Part shown: positions 41,545-52,294 of the stretch, in pieces
How positions within the stretch are numbered: the first letter of the stretch is position 1
How the letters are laid out: the number at the start of each line of letters is the position of its first letter
Assembly: GCA_950054155.1 (NCBI GenBank)
Contig: CATLOT010000005.1
Span: 1 to 64,000, forward strand
From: an uncultured Bacteriovoracaceae bacterium
Lineage (GTDB): Bacteria; Bdellovibrionota; Bacteriovoracia; Bacteriovoracales; Bacteriovoracaceae
Direction of reading: 5' to 3'
Length of the DNA stretch: 64,000 bases
Made by a program: the position numbers and the translations under genes
The notes under the pieces: model-generated
What the model saw: the letters and a program-made list of their open reading frames with translations, nothing else
What the model was told of the DNA's origin: nothing
The model's database searches: none

Positions 41545-42033
41545 TTAAGAAATGATTAAAAACGGGAGCTTAAAGCCTTTTCCATCGTGCTGAAGTTCTT
41601 TTATTTGGTCGATTAAATGATTTAATTTGAGACCACAAAATGAGTCACTTTTCTGGCTAAGGGGAAGCAAAAGTTCAACAGAGCGCTCGAGATGTCCTTT
41701 TGCGGCAGAGTCGTGATCAAGGTTTTGTTTCACTCCTGCTGCGGCCAGTTTAATAAGGGCTTTAAGAAGGTCGGCGAGATCACCTTTTCTTCCCTCTATA
41801 TTCCAAAGCTCCTCCCACCACACATGGCTCTCCCAATAGAATCCATAATTATAGAGGTCTATGGCATAGAGGAAGTCCTGGTTTTCTAGGGGGTATTGGG
41901 GATTGAGGGCGCTCAGTTTGAGTTCTACGCCCTCCATATGTCCTCCAACCTTCTCTGGGTGAGGGTTTCTCCCTGGAACAAAGGCATAGGGAGGGAAATC
42001 AATGTGGGGAGTGTATCGTTTCGGCTTTTCCAT
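41545..42033 (-). CDS. DUF309-family protein
   Basis: 162 residues. YAIDLYNYGFYWESHVWWEELWN followed by LLKALIKLAAAGVKQ matches DUF309 (the F-N-x-G-x-F-(Y/W)-E-x-H-x-x-W-E pattern), a small helical family of unknown function. The family's His and Glu are present. It stands alone, divergent from the exported protein gene at 42109. Confidence 0.75.
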   Translation of the reverse strand: MEKPKRYTPHIDFPPYAFVPGRNPHPEKVGGHMEGVELKLSALNPQYPLENQDFLYAIDLYNYGFYWESHVWWEELWNIEGRKGDLADLLKALIKLAAAGVKQNLDHDSAAKGHLERSVELLLPLSQKSDSFCGLKLNHLIDQIKELQHDGKGFKLPFLIIS

Positions 42034-42108: not shown

Positions 42109-43017
42109 ATGGTGAAAAATCTAATTTTCTTTTTTGTTCTTTTGAGTAGCTCCCTTAACGCTCGTGAATTTGGTCCATGGCCCCAGGGCTATTTCTTGGA
42201 TAAAGGGCTATTGAATTGCGTAAGTCTTGAGGAGTGCCGCAGTCCTCAAATCTCTGATATTCAAACACTCAGAGATGATTGGCAACGCTTTGAAGAAAAA
42301 CGCATTGAGCACCTTGATTCCTTAAAAGGACAAGCCCGCCTCCTTCTCGATGGAGCAATGGAAAGAGCACAAAGTGAAGTCATGGAGTATGAGGCCAGTG
42401 AGTATGGCCGCATTTTAATGGAGAAGGTCAATGAGGCAAATGCTAAGCTTTCTCCTCTGCTTCAGGGTGAGTATGACCTCTGGGTCAGTAATAGCTCACC
42501 GGTTTATGGACTCTTTAATTCTCTTGAAGATCTCATTCATCAAGGGGGAGTGAGCCGCTTAGATAAGAAGATTTATCACGAGTGGTTTAATAAAGAGGAA
42601 ACACAGCTTATTCTTTCAAAAATTGATTTTGTTGAAAAAAGTTTCTTTAAGAATTCAAAAGAGGAAACCCTTCTTTCCTTTTTAAGAGAGGAGTTCTTCT
42701 TAGGGGATGGCGTCGTCTTAAAGAATTGCCCCAAGCCTGTGGAAGAGGCCCTTATCAAAATGATGGGAAGAGGGACTTTTTTTAAAGATCCAAAAGGTGA
42801 GCTGCCTTCTTTAATCGAGGATGGCGATAAGTTTCGCGCTTTCTATCTTTCTAGTCGTCAGGAAAATGAATTGATTATTGAGTGTGATCAAAAGAAAGTC
42901 TTTGGCCAACCTAAGCTTAAGGACTTGGGTCAACGTCGCTATGAACTCTCTTACAAAGTGAGCCAAGGAAAGTATAAGCTTCCCGATTCCTCTGAACTTC
43001 GTGTTTTAAAACCTTAA
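42109..43017 (+). CDS. Exported helical protein, function unknown
   Basis: 302 residues from the ATG at 42109, which GAGGAGGGAG precedes; an open frame upstream overlaps the DUF309 gene and is not used. Signal peptide KNLIFFFVLLSSSLNA. Residues 50-140 are helical and charged. One Cys pair may form near the start (LNCVSLEEC). No family is recognised. Its stop shares TTAA with the convergent receiver gene. Confidence 0.65.
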   Translation: MVKNLIFFFVLLSSSLNAREFGPWPQGYFLDKGLLNCVSLEECRSPQISDIQTLRDDWQRFEEKRIEHLDSLKGQARLLLDGAMERAQSEVMEYEASEYGRILMEKVNEANAKLSPLLQGEYDLWVSNSSPVYGLFNSLEDLIHQGGVSRLDKKIYHEWFNKEETQLILSKIDFVEKSFFKNSKEETLLSFLREEFFLGDGVVLKNCPKPVEEALIKMMGRGTFFKDPKGELPSLIEDGDKFRAFYLSSRQENELIIECDQKKVFGQPKLKDLGQRRYELSYKVSQGKYKLPDSSELRVLKP

Positions 43018-43421
43018 AGGCCGAGAAGCTCATTCACTTCATTGGCGATGTCGCGAATGGAGAGGGGTTTGAGAAGAATTTTACTCGCACCATTTTGGAT
43101 TAAGACATTATCGTCATCGTTTGAGACAAATCCCGATAAGACAATGATAGGCACCGTGGGGTGCAGGGATCTCATGCGCTTTACCAGCTCTTCACCGTTC
43201 ATTTTAGGCATGCTCTTGTCGCTGATAACAAGATCGATATTTTTAAAGTTATCATTGAAGTAGTCTAGGGCCTCAAGGGGTTTTGAAAAGATGGCCACGT
43301 TATAGCCAAAGCGCTCGAGACCTTGCTTTGTCATTTTAAGGGTGACGGCCTCATCATCCACAATGAGGATATTCTTCTTACCCTCAACGGGTAATGCTTT
43401 TGAATTAAGAGCATCAGACAT
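43014..43421 (-). CDS. Single-domain response regulator (CheY-like receiver)
   Basis: 135 residues, one receiver domain. ILIVDDEAV supplies the acidic pair, LVISDKSMPKMNG the phospho-acceptor D68, IIVLSG the Ser/Thr switch and ILLKP the Lys. No output domain. A 15-residue leader precedes the domain. Its partner kinase is not obvious; the pseudo-kinase at 44854 cannot serve. Confidence 0.92.
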   Translation of the reverse strand: MSDALNSKALPVEGKKNILIVDDEAVTLKMTKQGLERFGYNVAIFSKPLEALDYFNDNFKNIDLVISDKSMPKMNGEELVKRMRSLHPTVPIIVLSGFVSNDDDNVLIQNGASKILLKPLSIRDIANEVNELLGL

Positions 43422-43545: not shown

Positions 43546-44814
43546 ATGTTAGACATTAAATTTATTCGTGAAAACAAAGACCTAGTAAAAAAAGCGGTAG
43601 AGCTCAAGAATAGCTCCGTTGATATTGATGCGCTCTTAGAAGTCGACACCACTCTGCTTGAGAAGAAGAGAGAGATGCAGGCGCTTCAAGAGAGCCGTAA
43701 TGCCCATTCTAAGAAGATCCCTAAGGCCACTGCTGAGGAGAGACCTACTCTTATTGAAGAGGGGCGAGAAATTGGTAAGAAGCTTGATGCAATGAAGCCA
43801 GAAGTGGGAGAGCTTGAAGAGAAATTAAGAGATTTTCTTTTACGAGTCCCCAATCCTCCGGCCGCTGACGCTCCTGTTGGTAAAGATGAAAATGATAATG
43901 TCGAAATTGAGAAAGGTGGCGAGCTGCCAAACTTTAGTTTCGAGGCCCGTGACCACGTCGAAATCCTTGAGATGAATAAGTGGGCGGAGTTTGAAAATAT
44001 CGCCAAGGTCTGTGGTTCACGCTCTTATAGTTTAAGAAATGACATGGTTCTTCTTGAGATGGCGACTCATAGAATGGCCCTTGAAAAGCTCAAGGCCAAG
44101 GGATTCAACCTTGTCAGTACTCCTGCTCTTGCCCGTGAGCATGCGCTTGTGGGAACAGGGCACTTTCCAGAAGGACGTGACCAGGTTTACTACCTCCCAG
44201 AAGATGACCTCTATCTTTCGGGAACGGCTGAAGTTCAGCTTAATAGCCTCCATGGTGGTGATATTTTAAAAGAAGATCAGCTTCCCATTCTCTACGCTGG
44301 TTATAGCCCATGCTTTAGAAGAGAGGCGGGCTCTTATGGCCGTGATGTTCGCGGTCTTATTCGTGTGCATCAGTTCATGAAAGTAGAGCAGTATGTAATT
44401 TGTAAGAATGATCCAGAGGAGAGTAAGAAGTGGCATGATGCTCTTCTGGCAACCTCACTTGAGATTGTAAAAGACCTCGAACTTCCTTACCGTGTGGTTG
44501 AATGCTGTACGGGAGATATGGGAACCGGCAAAGTCAAAATGTATGATGTTGAGTGTTGGGTTCCAAGTGAAGAAAAATACCGTGAAACTCACTCATGCTC
44601 TTCTCTCTACGATTGGCAATCTCGTCGTACTAACACTCGCTATCGTGATGGAGACGGTCAGGTTCAATTCGTTCACACCCTTAATAACACGGCCATTGCT
44701 ACTCCGAGGATTTTGGTCAGTCTTTTGGAAAACCATCAAAATGAGGATGGCAGTGTTAATATTCCTAAGGCCTTAAGACCTTTTATGGGCGGAGCTGATA
44801 AAATTAAGGGCTAG
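43546..44814 (+). CDS. serS: Seryl-tRNA synthetase
   Basis: 422 residues. MLDIKFIRENKDLVKKAVELK opens the long antiparallel tRNA-binding coiled coil (to about 110). The class II core has LSGTAEVQL, GYSPCFRREAGSYGRDVRGLIRVHQF (motif 2) and NNTAIATPRILVSLLE (motif 3). It charges tRNA-Ser, and tRNA-Sec if present. A complete housekeeping copy. Confidence 0.97.
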   Translation: MLDIKFIRENKDLVKKAVELKNSSVDIDALLEVDTTLLEKKREMQALQESRNAHSKKIPKATAEERPTLIEEGREIGKKLDAMKPEVGELEEKLRDFLLRVPNPPAADAPVGKDENDNVEIEKGGELPNFSFEARDHVEILEMNKWAEFENIAKVCGSRSYSLRNDMVLLEMATHRMALEKLKAKGFNLVSTPALAREHALVGTGHFPEGRDQVYYLPEDDLYLSGTAEVQLNSLHGGDILKEDQLPILYAGYSPCFRREAGSYGRDVRGLIRVHQFMKVEQYVICKNDPEESKKWHDALLATSLEIVKDLELPYRVVECCTGDMGTGKVKMYDVECWVPSEEKYRETHSCSSLYDWQSRRTNTRYRDGDGQVQFVHTLNNTAIATPRILVSLLENHQNEDGSVNIPKALRPFMGGADKIKG

Positions 44815-44853: not shown

Positions 44854-47385
44854 ATGAAAGCCCTCTCTGTGAATCAGAAAGTACGTACACCCTTTATGAT
44901 TATTTCGACAGCCTTTGTCGTGAGTGGTGTTATTGGTCTTTTTTTACTCCTTAAAGTCCAAGAGAGTTATGATCACTATTCAGATTCCATTATTAGACTT
45001 GAGAGAATTTATCGCAGTATCCTGACAACAGAGCGATTGGTACAAGGAATTCAAAATGAGGAAGACTCACGAGAAAGTAGTGACTTCTTGCCTGGCCTAA
45101 AAGAGGAGTCCCATCGCTTTGAAGAACTTTTTTCAAGTCTTGAAGTAGGGGATAATGATGTCCAATGGGCCGGAACATCTCTTCGCAGTTTACTCTATTC
45201 CTCTGATTGGAAATTTGTAGAAAACTTTCGTCATTTTCAAAAACTTCAAAACGCTATCATTAAAGATTTAAAGAGAAACGGCTTTGTTCAAAGAAGAGTT
45301 CTACTTCGTGAAATAGAGACGCAAACAACTAAGATTTTAGATATTTCAAAACCTTTAACGAAGGCTTTAAAGGCTGAGAAGAAAAAGATCAAGTCTTTAA
45401 GAAATGTGGTCCTCATAGGAACAACAGTTCTCTTTGGGATTATCCTTGTGATGGTCTTTCTCTTTGTTTATCGGCCATGGAAGAGAGAATATCAAAACCT
45501 TGAACAGGAAAGAGAACGCCTGCAAGGGGTACTTAAAGAGAGTGAAATCAGAGGAAACACCTTCAGTTGGGAAGTTAATTTCGGCACCAAATTAACTCGC
45601 CGATCAAATCATCTCTCTGGAATATTTGAATTTGAAAGTGAGTCCTCTGTGGTTGAACTAAAGAAAGAGCTCTCTCTCTTTAGTACGGAGTGCCAGATTA
45701 TGTTTGAAGCTGCTCTTGAAAATTGTGCTCTTAAAGGCGAGGTCTTTGATATTCAAGTCGATCTCGTCACGAAGAATAAGAAGCGCTACTGGCTGCACTA
45801 CTATGCCAAGAGAAAGCAGGTGGGAGGAGAGACCCTTATTGTAGGGACGGTTCGTGATATCACTCACCAAAAACTTGCCGAAGAGCGCTTTAAGATTCTC
45901 TTTGAGCAACTCAAGATTCCCGCCTTAATTTTTGGAGACGGTCAAATTCGTGACGTTAATGAATCTGGACAACGTTATTTTGGAATCAATGAATCTCGAG
46001 AATACAGTAATCTCCATCCCGCTATCCTCTTTCCTCTCTATCAATTAGATGGGCATAGCTCTCTTGAAAAACTCAAATCAGCACTGGGAGAAACTAAAGA
46101 GGGTAAAGTCATTCATCAGGATTGGCTTTTTCAGCTTAATAATGGCAAGGAAGTCGCGGGCCTAATAAGCCTCTTTAATATTCCCTATCCGACAGTTGAT
46201 CTGCATATAATGCTCATCCATGATGATAGTAAGAGATTCGAATTTGAGCGGCGCTTGGTGGACACCAATAGAAAGGCCCTTCATGCTCGTAGAGTTAAGC
46301 TTGAATACATCACCCAGATGGGGGTTGTTCTTGATGAACTCGTTGACCTCGTAGACACCGAGATTCGTGAAAATGAAAAAGTGGAGCTTGCCCACGCTCA
46401 TAAGCTAAGAGAGATAAAGACTCAATTAGAATACCTCTGGGGTGAAAATATTAATCACGGTCTAGCGGAGTCATCAAATACTGTACTCACGGATTTTAAG
46501 TCAATGATGGATGGCCTTCATAAGAGATGGACAAGATCGGCCAAGGAAAATTTATGTGAAGTCGACTGCAAGTACTTTGAGGATGTTGATCAGTACCTCT
46601 GGCTTGATAGTATAAAGCTTAAGCTTGCTCTTAATAATTTAGTGATGGGAGCGATTGATTATAAAGAGCGCTCTCATATTGAAATTGAAGTTAAAACAAA
46701 GTTTCAAAATTCGCGCTATGGGAAAATTTCCTTTCTTGTAAAAACCACCGCGAAGAATTGGATTCAAAGCGATTGGACTGTACTTAGCCAAATTAGCAAT
46801 AAACCCTCTGAAGATAAGGGGATTGCGGCCATGAGAACATCTCGAATTGAAGATCTTAGAGTGAGAGAAAATACTGACTTTATTAATCTTGTTGAGCTTC
46901 TTCAGGGTGAGGTCTTCTTTGATCGTGATGAAGAAACCGTTGGCATAGGTTTTAGCTGTGCAATTGAAAGAGTGATTGGGGTGAGCTCTGATATTCTCAA
47001 TGATGTGACGGAAAACCCTGATGATCAGGAGAACACGATTTCCGCTTCAGAGATTTGGTCTCACTTTGGTGGGGACTGGGATATTATTGAAAATACCATT
47101 AAGGACTTCTTTGATTATTATCCCACGGCCATATCAGACCTCTATTATTATTTAGAGGATAAGAATAGTGAAAAGATTCTTGAGATTTCGACCGATCTCT
47201 ACGGTGTTATCACTCATTTTCCTTTCTTTAGTGCTATTGAGAGGGTTGTGCGCATCCAAAAGTATAGTAAGTACTTACACTTTGATAAAATTGAAAATGA
47301 ATTGACCCTCCTCAATCATGAACTCAATTCTTTCCATCGTGCTCTTTCGGACTTCCTGCCTCAGAAGAGACTCAAGACTGCTTAG
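44854..47385 (+). CDS. Degenerate membrane-bound hybrid sensor (pseudo-kinase with pseudo-HPt)
   Basis: 843 residues. Two membrane helices (about 13-34 and 187-207) bracket a helical sensor region of 150 residues; PAS-like domains follow (about 230-340 and 345-465). Residues 478-540 take the place of a DHp domain and 570-680 that of a kinase core: KLALNNLVMGAIDYKERSHIEIEV resembles an N box, but the Asn is Gly, and no phosphorylatable His is present where the H box should be. Residues 732-843 resemble an HPt bundle, but the usual AHxLKG is replaced by STDLYG. It looks as if both phosphotransfer sites are lost. It probably acts by binding. Its stop shares TTAG with the convergent tetR gene. 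Confidence 0.7.
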   Translation: MKALSVNQKVRTPFMIISTAFVVSGVIGLFLLLKVQESYDHYSDSIIRLERIYRSILTTERLVQGIQNEEDSRESSDFLPGLKEESHRFEELFSSLEVGDNDVQWAGTSLRSLLYSSDWKFVENFRHFQKLQNAIIKDLKRNGFVQRRVLLREIETQTTKILDISKPLTKALKAEKKKIKSLRNVVLIGTTVLFGIILVMVFLFVYRPWKREYQNLEQERERLQGVLKESEIRGNTFSWEVNFGTKLTRRSNHLSGIFEFESESSVVELKKELSLFSTECQIMFEAALENCALKGEVFDIQVDLVTKNKKRYWLHYYAKRKQVGGETLIVGTVRDITHQKLAEERFKILFEQLKIPALIFGDGQIRDVNESGQRYFGINESREYSNLHPAILFPLYQLDGHSSLEKLKSALGETKEGKVIHQDWLFQLNNGKEVAGLISLFNIPYPTVDLHIMLIHDDSKRFEFERRLVDTNRKALHARRVKLEYITQMGVVLDELVDLVDTEIRENEKVELAHAHKLREIKTQLEYLWGENINHGLAESSNTVLTDFKSMMDGLHKRWTRSAKENLCEVDCKYFEDVDQYLWLDSIKLKLALNNLVMGAIDYKERSHIEIEVKTKFQNSRYGKISFLVKTTAKNWIQSDWTVLSQISNKPSEDKGIAAMRTSRIEDLRVRENTDFINLVELLQGEVFFDRDEETVGIGFSCAIERVIGVSSDILNDVTENPDDQENTISASEIWSHFGGDWDIIENTIKDFFDYYPTAISDLYYYLEDKNSEKILEISTDLYGVITHFPFFSAIERVVRIQKYSKYLHFDKIENELTLLNHELNSFHRALSDFLPQKRLKTA

Positions 47386-48032
47386 AAATCAAACGAGGGT
47401 AGCTCTACCTTTAAAAGTGTTTCCAAATTAAATTGCAGGCGAAGTGCGTGGTCACGATACTGATCCCTTTGATTGAGATGAATGAGATTGATCAAACTCC
47501 CCGTCACTAAGCTTCGCACGCCAAAGACGGCAATTCGCAACTCTTCCATAGAGCGATAGCGCAGAGATTCTAAAAATATTCGCTCCCACAGGCGCATTTG
47601 AAAGAGCTCAAAGTTTTCTTGGTCTTTTTTGAGACGCAAAGAGAGCTTATTTAAGTGAGGGAGGAGGGCGAGAAAATCAGAAACTTCATTATTAAAGAGA
47701 TACCAGCGAAAAGTGCCTTGAACGCAGTCGTGAATCTTTTGTTCAAAGGAGCTCTCCTCTACAAGGTAGAGACCCAAAAAGTATTCACCCATTTTTTGAA
47801 TGAAGAGAGAGAGGTCTTCCAGGATTCTCTCCTTACTTTCATAGTGATAGAGGACCAAGGGCTTAGAGAGACCGGTATTTTTGGCCACTTCAGTGACACT
47901 GAGGTTATGGAGCCCCTGCTGGCTGATGATTTTTAGGGATGCCTCTAAAAGCGCATATTTCTTGGCCGAGAGGCTCTTTGAGCCATCCATTCCCCCTAGG
48001 GCCTGCCAATCGATCTTATAATTAATGCGCAT
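47382..48032 (-). CDS. TetR-family transcription regulator
   Basis: 216 residues. The N-terminal HTH is KYALLEASLKIISQQGLHNLSVTEVAKNTGLSKPLVLYHYESKERIL. The ligand-binding half has no group I can name. ATG at 48032 or one fourteen codons on (MDGSKSL) may be the start; the latter follows an AGGGGG run. No divergently transcribed target is obvious, apart from the small membrane protein at 48142. Confidence 0.88.
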   Translation of the reverse strand: MRINYKIDWQALGGMDGSKSLSAKKYALLEASLKIISQQGLHNLSVTEVAKNTGLSKPLVLYHYESKERILEDLSLFIQKMGEYFLGLYLVEESSFEQKIHDCVQGTFRWYLFNNEVSDFLALLPHLNKLSLRLKKDQENFELFQMRLWERIFLESLRYRSMEELRIAVFGVRSLVTGSLINLIHLNQRDQYRDHALRLQFNLETLLKVELPSFDF

Positions 48033-48331: not shown

Positions 48332-51058
48332 ATGAAAATTACAATTGGTCAAAGGTTCATGAGCGAAACTGAACCTGAGCTAGGTCTTGGTCTCATCACA
48401 GAGGTTTTAGACAAACAAATTCGCGTCCTCTTTGCAGCCAGTGAGACGGAAAGGGTTTATGGGCGAAAGTCGGCTCCCCTTAAACGTGTGAGCTTTGAGG
48501 TCGGTGACAGTATCAAAGGGCGAGAAGGTGAAAGCTTTGTCGTTGAAAGCATTGATGAGCGCGATGGTCTTCTTATGTATCAGGGAGAGGGTCAAGTTCT
48601 TGTTGAGGATGCTCTTGATGATAATCTTGCTTTTAATAACCCTGAAGAGAAGCTCTTTAATGCTCAGGTGGATACCAACCAATTCTTTCAATTAAGGCTT
48701 GATACTTTAGAGCATCTTCGTGAATGGGAAACATCACAAACGAAGGGACTCTTTGGAGGGCGTATTAGTCTGATCCCTCATCAATTCTATATTGCGAATG
48801 AAGTATTAAAGCGCCAAACTCCTCGAGTTCTTCTCGCCGATGAGGTGGGGCTTGGAAAGACGATTGAGGCCTGTCTCATTATTCATCAGCAGATCGTGAC
48901 CAATAGAGCTTCGCGAGTTCTTGTCGTCGTTCCCGACTCCCTTGTCTATCAGTGGTTCTTTGAACTTCATAGAAAGTTTCAACTTGGCTTTGCGGCCATC
49001 AATCAGGAAACGCCTCCAGAGCCAGGTGTTAATCATTTTATTCACAATGAGCGTGTTGTTGTCTCCCTTGGCCTTCTTAAAGGCTCAAAGCTCGCTCAAG
49101 AGATGCTTGAAGAGGCTGACTTTGATATCCTCGTCGTTGATGAAGCCCATCAATATAAGAAAGAAGAAGGCGGCTTCGAGTACGCCTTTCTTGAAAATAT
49201 CTGTGCCAAAGTCCCTTCAGTGCTCCTTCTCACGGCAACGCCAGAGCAGTTGGGGATGAGTGGACACTTTGATCGACTCAGACTTCTTGATCCTGATCGC
49301 TACAACAGTTTTGAAGAGTTTAAGAGCGAGGTCGCAGAGTATGAAACGGTGGCTAAGGCCGCAAAAGAAATCGTTGCTGAAGATCTCTCAGAGGAATCTT
49401 CTAAGCATCTTAAGGGCTGGTTGAGTCCTAAAACCTTTGAGCAAACGTTGCAGGCCGATTCTCTTGGCCAAAATAAGAAGAAAATACTGACGGAGCTTAT
49501 TGATCGCCATGGCACCGGTCGTGTCTTCTTTAGAAATACTCGCCAGGCCATGAGAAAAGAGTACGACTTCTTTCCTAAGCGGCTTCTTAAGGCAGTGCCC
49601 TTAAGTGGTAAGGACGATGGCGAAGATGTTATTGGTTTCTTTGAGAAGGCGAATTGGCTGCTAGAATTTCTCAGAAACTCAAATGATAAGATCCTTCTTA
49701 TTTGCCATAGTAAGAATCAAATTGTTGCTCTTGAAAAGTTTATTAAAGAGCACGATGCTCAAATTAAGACAGCACTCTTTCACTCGGGTCTCTCTCTTAT
49801 GGCCCGTGACCGCCAAGCCGCTTTCTTTGCTGATGAGGCCGGTGCTCAAATTCTTCTTTGTACTGAGATTGGATCTGAGGGGCGAAACTTTGAGTTCGCT
49901 CATCATTTGGTGCTCTTTGATCTTCCGAAGAAACCTGATCTCTTAGAGCAAAGAATCGGACGTTTGGATCGAATTGGCCAAAAGGCTGACATCCAAATTC
50001 ATGTGCCTTATATCAAGGGAAGCTCAGAAGAGACTCTCTTTGATATTTATAATGAAGGGCTTGATAGCTTTAAGCGCTTTAATTCAGTAGGGACCCCCGT
50101 CTTTGTTCACTTTGCTGATGAAATCCATGAAGTCCTAGAGGAGAGTAAGAAGGGGAATGACGATCTTATTGAACGCATTAAAAATTATCGTCTAGAGCTT
50201 GAAACTCAAATGGAAGAGAGTAGAGATCTGCTCATTGAAATGAATTCCTTTGATCCTGATATTGGTCATGGTCTTATTAGGGGAATTCGCGAGTCTGAGG
50301 CAAGTGGTCATCTCAAGGCCTATATGGAGAGTTGTTTTGAGTGCTTTGGCGTTGACGTTGAAGACCTCCATGAAATGGCGACCTTTATTAAGCCCAACGA
50401 TAATATGTTCATCCCACACTTTCCTCATCTTGAGGCAGAGGGACAGACGATCACCTTTGATAGACGTGAAGCCTTAGAACGCGAGGATTACCAATTTATC
50501 AATTGGGATCATCCTATGGTGAGGGAAATCAGTAATCTTGTCCTGAGTGAATCCTACGGAAATATGACAGTGGCCACTAGGCGTGATGGAGGCGGCAAGA
50601 AGTCCTTTGTTGAAGCGTTCTTTGTGACTGATTGTCCAGCCCCGGACTTTCTTGATCTTAAGAGATTCTTTCCTCCGACACTTATTAGAGTCCTCATCGA
50701 TAAAGATGGGGTGGACTTTGATGAAAAATTCTCTAAAGACCTTCTTGATACAAAACTCATTCAAGGTGATCGCACTCTCATTGAAAGAGCGTCAAAACTT
50801 CCCAAAGATTTGATCAAGGGACTGCTTAAGAAAGCTGAAGTGATCGCTAAGGAAAAGTCAGAGCTCATCGTTGAAAAGCAGCGTCTGAATCTTGTCTCCT
50901 CCATGGACAATGAGGTTAGCCGTCTAGAAGCACTCTCTCAGGTGAATCCCAATATTTCTCAAGATGAAGTTGAGTTGATGAGAGCGATGAAGAAAGTAAT
51001 GCTTGATCACACGCAAGGGGTAAGGCTACGCCTTGAAGCTGTTAGGGTTATTTTGTAA
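48332..51058 (+). CDS. rapA: RNA polymerase-associated SNF2 ATPase RapA
   Basis: 908 residues. The N-terminus IGQRFMSETEPELGLGLI and the two Tudor-like strands after it are RapA-specific. The SNF2 motor has DEVGLGKTIEA (Walker A), VVDEAHQYK, LLLTATPEQLG, then SKNQIVALEKF, ICTEIGSEGRNFEFAHHLVLFDLP-type motif V and QRIGRLDRIGQ (motif VI). RapA recycles stalled RNA polymerase. It is slightly shorter than the E. coli protein (968). Confidence 0.95.
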   Translation: MKITIGQRFMSETEPELGLGLITEVLDKQIRVLFAASETERVYGRKSAPLKRVSFEVGDSIKGREGESFVVESIDERDGLLMYQGEGQVLVEDALDDNLAFNNPEEKLFNAQVDTNQFFQLRLDTLEHLREWETSQTKGLFGGRISLIPHQFYIANEVLKRQTPRVLLADEVGLGKTIEACLIIHQQIVTNRASRVLVVVPDSLVYQWFFELHRKFQLGFAAINQETPPEPGVNHFIHNERVVVSLGLLKGSKLAQEMLEEADFDILVVDEAHQYKKEEGGFEYAFLENICAKVPSVLLLTATPEQLGMSGHFDRLRLLDPDRYNSFEEFKSEVAEYETVAKAAKEIVAEDLSEESSKHLKGWLSPKTFEQTLQADSLGQNKKKILTELIDRHGTGRVFFRNTRQAMRKEYDFFPKRLLKAVPLSGKDDGEDVIGFFEKANWLLEFLRNSNDKILLICHSKNQIVALEKFIKEHDAQIKTALFHSGLSLMARDRQAAFFADEAGAQILLCTEIGSEGRNFEFAHHLVLFDLPKKPDLLEQRIGRLDRIGQKADIQIHVPYIKGSSEETLFDIYNEGLDSFKRFNSVGTPVFVHFADEIHEVLEESKKGNDDLIERIKNYRLELETQMEESRDLLIEMNSFDPDIGHGLIRGIRESEASGHLKAYMESCFECFGVDVEDLHEMATFIKPNDNMFIPHFPHLEAEGQTITFDRREALEREDYQFINWDHPMVREISNLVLSESYGNMTVATRRDGGGKKSFVEAFFVTDCPAPDFLDLKRFFPPTLIRVLIDKDGVDFDEKFSKDLLDTKLIQGDRTLIERASKLPKDLIKGLLKKAEVIAKEKSELIVEKQRLNLVSSMDNEVSRLEALSQVNPNISQDEVELMRAMKKVMLDHTQGVRLRLEAVRVIL

Positions 51059-51359
51059 GGAATTTATCAAGATCACCCTTATTAAAGCATTCCATGATTC
51101 GCTTTCCAAAGAGTTTTTGAAGCTCTTTTTCTGAGCCTCTCATCATCAGCTGACCCATGGCCTTTTGACAGCGCTCAGGAGTGTAGGTGAGAGTGCTCTC
51201 CTTAGCTTGGCAGTGCTCGACATAGAGTTTTGACGGCTTAGGGAGACCACGATAATACTTCATCGCGAGACCATCACAGTCCTTAATCATCTCTTTTACA
51301 TTTTCTGACTGACATCCTGAAATGAATATCAGGAGCAAGAGGGCGGAAAATATTTTCAT
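51048..51359 (-). CDS. Small predicted lipoprotein
   Basis: 103 residues. Lipobox FISGC after KIFSALLLLI. The mature part has four Cys (after the lipid Cys: DCDG, EHCQ, ERCQ, MECF) that could pair. Its ATG overlaps the stop of the HD-GYP-like gene by one base (TAATG), so the two form an operon. The 3' end overlaps rapA by 11 bases. No family is recognised. Confidence 0.7.
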   Translation of the reverse strand: MKIFSALLLLIFISGCQSENVKEMIKDCDGLAMKYYRGLPKPSKLYVEHCQAKESTLTYTPERCQKAMGQLMMRGSEKELQKLFGKRIMECFNKGDLDKFLTK

Positions 51360-52294
51360 TAAAGGAGACCTTCCTCGACAAGAACCGCTTCGAAGCGTTG
51401 AATGAGTTCAAGATTGTAGCGACCAATATAATCGAGCTGAAAAACTTTATAAGCTTCTTTTGGGGATTCTTTTTTTACGATAAGGCGCTTATCAAAGGCA
51501 TTGCAAAGGCTAAGGCACTCTTGAAGAGGAGTGAGCTTTCTCACTTTCAAGGGACCAAGTCCCGTGAGGTCTTCTTCATGGTGATTGACTAAATCCTCAA
51601 CTCTCTTTGAAATAAAGTCTTTTCCATTGAGAAAGTTTTGAGACAGCTTAATATGCTGCGAGTAGCGCAGTCTTTCATCAGGCGTATGGGCGGTTGCTTC
51701 TTTTTCAAAGAGGGGAAGGTCTTCTACTTTGAGCTTCGTAAGACCAATGTCATGAAGAAGAGCAGCTGTCGCAAGATCATCAATTTCATCTTCTTTAAAG
51801 CGAAGATGCTCTCCAAGGCGCGTTGCAAGCGCACACACATTAATGGAGTGATTAATAATGAGATCGCTTTCCTTTGTCTTTTGACCAAAGAGCTTTTTGA
51901 GAGCATTGGGATTATTTTTAATGACAGTTCTCAAACCTGAAGCAGCTTTTTGAGTCATATCATAATTCTTATGACTGGCCTCTTCATTCATGCGCTCAAT
52001 AGATTGGGCGGCAACTTCACTGACGACATCGACTCTTTCTTCTAGAGACTTGCCTTCACCATAGACGGCCTCGTTGAGGGCTTCATCGAGAAAGAGCGTG
52101 ACATTATCGACTTGCTCTTCGGGGACATAGAAGTCCGCCATATCCTGGTTGATAAGCTTTTCAAGTTTAGCGGTGGTCAGAGCATTTCCTCTCTCTGCAT
52201 AACAGAGATAGTGATCTTTATAGTAGATATAAAGATCGAAGGAGAGCTCAGTGTCGGGCTGAACCGTTTTAATTCTAAGGGGAACAAAATCCAT
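51359..52294 (-). CDS. HD-GYP-related phosphohydrolase lacking the GYP motif
   Basis: 311 residues. An N-terminal 130-residue domain without a clear family is followed by an HD domain: HSINVCALATRLGEHL, ALLHDIGLTKL (H181, D182), HIKLSQNFL, and VNHHEEDLTGLG (H238, H239). The spacing and the HHE are those of HD-GYP c-di-GMP phosphodiesterases, but the usual DGSGYP reads DLTGLG. It may still bind two metals, though loss of Tyr and Pro often marks proteins that bind or signal rather than hydrolyse c-di-GMP. Cytoplasmic. Confidence 0.78.
   Translation of the reverse strand: MDFVPLRIKTVQPDTELSFDLYIYYKDHYLCYAERGNALTTAKLEKLINQDMADFYVPEEQVDNVTLFLDEALNEAVYGEGKSLEERVDVVSEVAAQSIERMNEEASHKNYDMTQKAASGLRTVIKNNPNALKKLFGQKTKESDLIINHSINVCALATRLGEHLRFKEDEIDDLATAALLHDIGLTKLKVEDLPLFEKEATAHTPDERLRYSQHIKLSQNFLNGKDFISKRVEDLVNHHEEDLTGLGPLKVRKLTPLQECLSLCNAFDKRLIVKKESPKEAYKVFQLDYIGRYNLELIQRFEAVLVEEGLL

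Follow-up and report, generated by a model that had tools for sequence, protein, structure and literature searches.

A Conserved Membrane Pseudo-Histidine Kinase of Bacteriovoracaceae Lacks the Phosphorylatable Histidines of Both Its Kinase-Like and Its HPt-Like Domain

The protein encoded at 44854-47385 (+) in the window, a 64,000 nucleotide stretch of contig CATLOT010000005.1 from an uncultured Bacteriovoracaceae bacterium (GCA_950054155.1), is homologous to a sensor kinase in all its domains and has lost both the H-box and the HPt histidine. The catalytic losses are found in eight genomes, where the gene is under purifying selection and shares its locus with serS and, wherever the contig extends far enough, with a receiver gene. 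The protein is best explained as an inner-membrane pseudo-histidine kinase that would act by binding and probably holds or reads the adjacent receiver in the manner of DivL and DivK, a reading to which we give a chance of roughly one in two.

Domain Architecture and Homology

The open reading frame is intact, with an ATG at 44854, a stop codon at 47383-47385 and a product of 843 aa, for which a Bacteriovoracales MAG holds the closest named record (54% identity). The domain order was determined by Pfam, profile-profile alignment and AlphaFold2. A first predicted transmembrane segment, TM1 (aa 15-33; 44896-44952), seen as a hydropathy peak in 8/8 orthologues, is followed by a helical ectodomain (44953-45405) and by TM2 (aa 185-203; 45406-45462), a hydrophobic segment common to all orthologues. 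Behind the membrane lie PAS1 (aa 234-343; 45553-45882; PAS_9, E=1e-6) and PAS2 (aa 344-458; 45883-46227), both present in 8/8 orthologues. PAS2 matches PAS_8 below the cut-off in the protein studied here and has the secondary structure of a PAS fold in the AlphaFold2 model; PAS1 is the only domain above the Pfam cut-off. The C-terminal half consists of a DHp-like two-helix domain (aa 459-540; 46228-46473), a CA/HATPase-like domain (aa 541-710; 46474-46983) and an HPt-like four-helix domain (aa 731-838; 47044-47367). The preliminary description had assigned the domain order of a hybrid sensor, and the membrane sensor, PAS, DHp-like, kinase-like and HPt-like parts were indeed found; however, there are two PAS domains, and no receiver (Response_reg in Pfam) was detected in the place between CA and HPt that it occupies in a hybrid histidine kinase. 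A variable linker of 20 residues is found there instead, and with this domain order the protein does not count as a hybrid kinase in the strict sense.

The single sequence gives no HisKA or Hpt match in Pfam or NCBIfam and no significant match to a kinase body in the PDB; only the orthologue profile resolves the kinase body and the HPt-like domain. When the profile of the eight orthologues was aligned by hhalign to the intact kinases of the same genomes, DHp-CA matched with a probability of 98.7 (E=2.4e-16) and the HPt-like domain with 97.3 (E=2e-11), whereas swapped domain pairs, used as controls, stayed below 1%. At the level of profiles, these alignments show that the DHp-CA and HPt-like parts are true homologues of the intact domains. 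In hmmsearch against the PDB the DHp-CA profile found GacS (7z8n, E=6.6e-10) and RetS (E=9e-5), and HATPase_c of Pfam is matched by two of the eight orthologues. The AlphaFold2 model of the C-terminal half has a mean pLDDT of 70, with mostly 70-93 in the helical HPt-like blocks, and its best PDB matches in Foldseek are the kinase regions of GacS and RetS. For the HPt-like profile the best PDB match, the BarA HPt, was not significant (E=0.14); by sequence this assignment is weaker against the PDB, and it is carried by the hhalign match, the predicted helical fold and the position in the chain. Together, hhalign, AlphaFold2, Foldseek and the profile search confirm the DHp, HATPase and HPt folds on which the preliminary description depended.

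Loss of Phosphorylation and ATP-Binding Residues

The residue register was set against five intact paralogues. In the profile alignment the H-box histidine position is taken by V491 (46324-46326; KSSFLASMSHEIRTPM in the pseudo-kinase versus KLEYITQMGVVLDELV in the intact paralogues), the H-box Glu position by V492, and the Thr/Asn at His+4, which is used in phosphatase reactions, by E495. In the CA-like domain G599 (46648-46650) stands at the N-box Asn position, the DxGxG adenine-binding motif of the G1 box has become TTAKN (T631-N635; 46744-46758), and the F and G2 boxes are deleted. In the HPt-like domain T780 is found at the histidine position (STDLYG, 47188-47205, versus GHTLKG in intact paralogues) and Y783 at that of the Lys at H+3. 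This Tyr is invariant across the orthologues, so that the docking face of the domain is changed; L782 and G784, beside the lost histidine, are invariant as well.

Across the eight orthologues the H-box histidine position reads V/I/I/I/I/V/V/A, aliphatic throughout, and the HPt histidine position T/T/T/T/T/C/S/C. Both replacements proposed earlier are therefore in register and shared, whereas the replacement of the N-box Asn holds for the pseudo-kinase of the window and not for orthologue L008, the one of eight that keeps the Asn. The losses go further than first claimed, as V492, E495, TTAKN, the missing F and G2 boxes and Y783 had not been noticed. A displaced H-box histidine was also searched for along the chain: the DHp contains no invariant histidine, and the only invariant ones are H127 in the ectodomain and H737, where the first HPt helix begins. 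The protein thus has DHp and CA folds and lacks both the phosphorylatable H-box histidine with the N, G1, F and G2 motifs of a histidine kinase and the phosphorylatable histidine of an HPt. By its residue losses and the purifying selection on it, it belongs to the pseudo-histidine kinases, defined as histidine kinase homologues that lack at least one histidine kinase function and are kept by selection. These losses are not lineage-wide, because an intact PAS-DHp-CA-REC-HPt hybrid kinase of the same genome (contig C5:118440-120803) carries every motif, namely SHEIRTP, NLISNAI, DTGLGIP, GGTGLGL and GHTLKG.

Conservation and Selection

Orthologues were searched in 129 genomes of the family and, by an alignment-based search, in 369 genomes of the phylum. 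Full-length orthologues are present in 8/369 phylum genomes: the family search found one in each of the seven genomes of the window's genus (34-100% identity) and one in G053 of another genus (25%), and the search of the phylum added no further full-length relative. Full length is retained down to an identity of 20%, and none of the eight genes contains a frameshift or stop. Within the genus the mean pairwise identity is lowest in the ectodomain with the TMs (24%), the fastest-evolving part, and reaches 54% in PAS1, 49% in PAS2, 45% in the DHp-like, 35% in the CA-like and 61% in the HPt-like domain, which is the most conserved.

L004 and L005 form the closest pair (75% identity); their synonymous differences are saturated (pS 0.81), and dN/dS ratios are mostly unusable because of such saturation. 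As pN in this pair is only 0.033 for the HPt-like domain and 0.119 for the CA-like domain, the amino acids are kept in spite of saturated synonymous sites; the protein is thus maintained rather than decaying, and most strictly so in the dead HPt. The eight full-length orthologues, the absence of both histidines and this strong purifying selection give good support, at the sequence level, to the earlier proposal that the protein has been selected for a non-catalytic role. A tree of serS does not separate one origin of the pseudo-kinase in genera g1 and g17 from separate origins.

The serS Locus and the Adjacent Receiver

The seryl-tRNA synthetase gene serS (43546-44814, +) is the conserved upstream neighbor, 39 bp away in the window. 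The pseudo-kinase gene directly follows it on the same strand in 8/8 genomes, with gaps of 37-74 bp where measured. A terminator scan of the gap between the two genes found nothing convincing, and the hairpin-like matches lie on the opposite strand.

Four further genomes (genera g2 and g13) match the pseudo-kinase over TM2-PAS-PAS only. Their same-locus proteins were considered as full orthologues and left uncounted, since they share only TM-PAS-PAS (E~1e-32 to 1e-33) and their C-terminal halves have no DHp-CA or HPt match. In g13 (L010, L011, L012) a REC-like domain (E=5.5e-6) replaces the kinase half and the C-terminal part has no recognizable HPt; the gene is preceded there by an HSP70/MreB-like gene of 414 aa. 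In g2 (L013 / L056 2794-5088) a protein of 764 aa directly follows serS, and its C-terminal half matches nothing tested. An H-box histidine is not recognizable in any examined relative that retains the TM-PAS-PAS front.

Other phosphorelay parts are found behind serS as well. In g3 and g16 a small HPt that keeps its histidine (AHTLKG or a close variant) comes after serS, together with a REC-DHp gene, and in g15 REC-DHp comes alone, whereas in the genus of the window the REC-DHp gene adjoins an intact hybrid kinase elsewhere in the genome (L083:6819-7466 in the genome studied here). The conserved REC-DHp protein of about 212 aa has the H-box HEINNPLT and no CA domain, and appears to be a phosphotransfer component lacking an ATPase; it is encoded at L067 3200-3838 and L069 3200-3835, in coordinates that run in the direction of serS. 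As such parts occur there in several genera, the region behind serS is a recurrent home for them.

Downstream, a TetR-type regulator gene (47382-48032, -) is convergent with the pseudo-kinase gene, and a gene for 216 aa in the orientation of the TetR gene occupies the same site in several g1 genomes and G053. Further along the window encodes a RapA-type RNA polymerase recycling ATPase (48332-51058, +), in which Pfam finds RapA_C (E=2e-104) and the two Tudor-like domains, and an HD-domain protein (51359-52294, -; HD_5 2.8e-11), possibly an HD-type phosphodiesterase judging from its domain match.

Divergent from serS and upstream of it lies the gene of a single-domain CheY-like receiver (43014-43421, -; Response_reg 4.5e-24) with an intact active site. 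Orthologues of this receiver (E<=1e-20) were detected in 7/129 genomes, i.e., six of the seven genus members and G053; in the eighth genome with the pseudo-kinase the contig is cut inside serS, short of the receiver position. They occur only in genomes with the pseudo-kinase, and in every one of these whose contig reaches the site, and all seven keep the phosphorylation-site residues DD/D/T-S/K. Given this adjacency and co-conservation, the receiver is probably the first candidate partner of the pseudo-kinase; as the co-occurrence spans only the two genera g1 and g17, it may also reflect inherited linkage rather than function. A DUF309 protein is encoded near the receiver gene (41545-42033, -), and a similar gene of 163 aa adjoins the receiver in L047. 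The retention of G784, the Gly at H+4, was considered as a sign of receiver docking and set aside: in Ypd1 the corresponding Gly matters for the transfer chemistry and not for affinity (PMC6341664), and its retention is therefore no proof of receiver binding.

Proposed Function and Alternatives

As the residues that make and pass on phosphate are replaced, binding of partner signaling proteins is the most likely role. The ectodomain and the PAS domains would sense a signal, and sensing would reshape a presumed dimer built on the DHp-like helices. Normal ATP binding, autophosphorylation and phosphate relay should all be impossible for the protein, so that its output would be binding. Most likely, the conserved surface of the pseudo-DHp and pseudo-HPt holds or reads a phosphorylatable receiver, with the product of 43014-43421 as the first candidate; partner and direction of signaling, like membrane topology and dimerization, are inferred. 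This receiver-binding version is favored by the co-conservation of the receiver and by how strictly the pseudo-HPt is conserved. More tentatively, the protein could be a membrane phosphorelay protein that is dead at both sites: its HPt-like domain without histidine would serve as a dedicated reader or holder of the phosphorylated receiver, and the scaffold would work as a pure binding switch at the membrane. Sequestering of a partner kinase or regulator, as suggested in the preliminary description, has precedents and is plausible by analogy.

One such form of sequestering would resemble RetS or ChrS: the DHp-like domain heterodimerizes with an intact kinase, e.g., the hybrid at C5:118440-120803, and blocks or redirects it. 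Among solved structures, GacS and its inhibitor RetS come closest in both fold and profile, the RetS-GacS DHp heterodimer is established (PMC12148439), heterodimers of the pseudokinase ChrS with HrrS are known (PMC9491836), and conservation of the DHp-like helices is moderate (45%). However, these helices are strongly diverged from those of the candidate kinase, and neither the top conservation of the HPt-like domain nor the travelling receiver gene would be explained, so that we regard this as rather improbable. The protein might also have a decoy function, in which the pseudo-HPt competes with real HPts for hybrid-kinase receivers and so damps a phosphorelay: AHP6, a plant HPt with a mutated histidine, inhibits a phosphorelay (PMC3572949), nine HPt domain matches are present in the genome at E<=0.01, and HPts with an intact histidine follow serS in g3 and g16. 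But the membrane anchor, the two PAS domains and the retained DHp-CA body would then be needless and no hybrid kinase gene adjoins the pseudo-kinase gene, which makes a decoy clearly unlikely.

Cryptic activity is very unlikely, whether phosphate were accepted by H737, by T780 itself or by H788, which lies two turns further on, or ATP were bound in a non-standard way. H737 is invariant, H788 is kept in seven of the eight orthologues and one orthologue has the N-box Asn; yet L007 has a Tyr in place of H788, H737 sits where the first helix begins, other orthologues have Cys or Ser instead of T780, and the protein encoded at 44854-47385 no longer has the G1, F and G2 boxes. Loss of the gene by decay, to which the lower conservation of the CA-like domain (35%) than of the other cytoplasmic domains and the g2 and g13 relatives without recognizable DHp-CA or HPt might point, can practically be dismissed, as in 8/8 genomes the reading frame is open over its full length and purifying selection acts on it.

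The loss at both sites, together with a dead HPt as the best conserved domain, is an argument that selection can act on an HPt fold purely for binding. The pseudo-kinase and the adjacent co-conserved receiver provide a ready-made pair for testing a binding-only HPt, in a group of predatory-type bacteria (Bacteriovoracales) whose signaling is little studied.

Comparison With Known Systems

RetS of Pseudomonas, among the best structural matches, has a kinase-like region that binds another kinase via its DHp. It contains receiver domains and is not known to have an HPt, whereas the pseudo-kinase carries an HPt-like domain and no receiver, and any cognate kinase is only a candidate here. In DivL a Tyr replaces the histidine, the ATP-binding domain is kept and no HPt is known; in contrast, the pseudo-kinase has a pseudo-HPt and a degenerate CA-like domain. 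Both are pseudo-histidine kinases associated with a phosphorylatable single-domain receiver, a pairing suggested here by synteny and co-occurrence, while in Caulobacter phosphorylated DivK binds DivL and switches CckA (PMC9430884).

Pseudo-kinases and pseudo-HPts are each already known. Missing phosphorylation sites are rare: one survey puts them at 0.9% for HisKA and likewise 0.9% for Hpt domains (PMC12632262). In the open-access papers searched we found no description of a bacterial protein that is dead at both the kinase and the HPt site. AHP6 is likewise an HPt fold with the histidine replaced, and acts as an inhibitor (PMC3572949), but it is an HPt protein of Arabidopsis, whereas the pseudo-HPt described here forms the tail of a membrane pseudo-kinase. 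In shape, the protein resembles RcsD, a membrane protein with an ectodomain, a PAS-like domain, an inactive kinase/HATPase-like body and a C-terminal HPt (PMC7418988), and the HATPase domain of RcsD is less conserved than that of its active partner (PMC7418988), as the CA-like domain here is also poorly conserved. However, the HPt of RcsD is active in spite of the inactive kinase body, since RcsD keeps the HPt histidine (H842) and relays phosphate, while the pseudo-kinase and its orthologues have Thr, Cys or Ser at this position.
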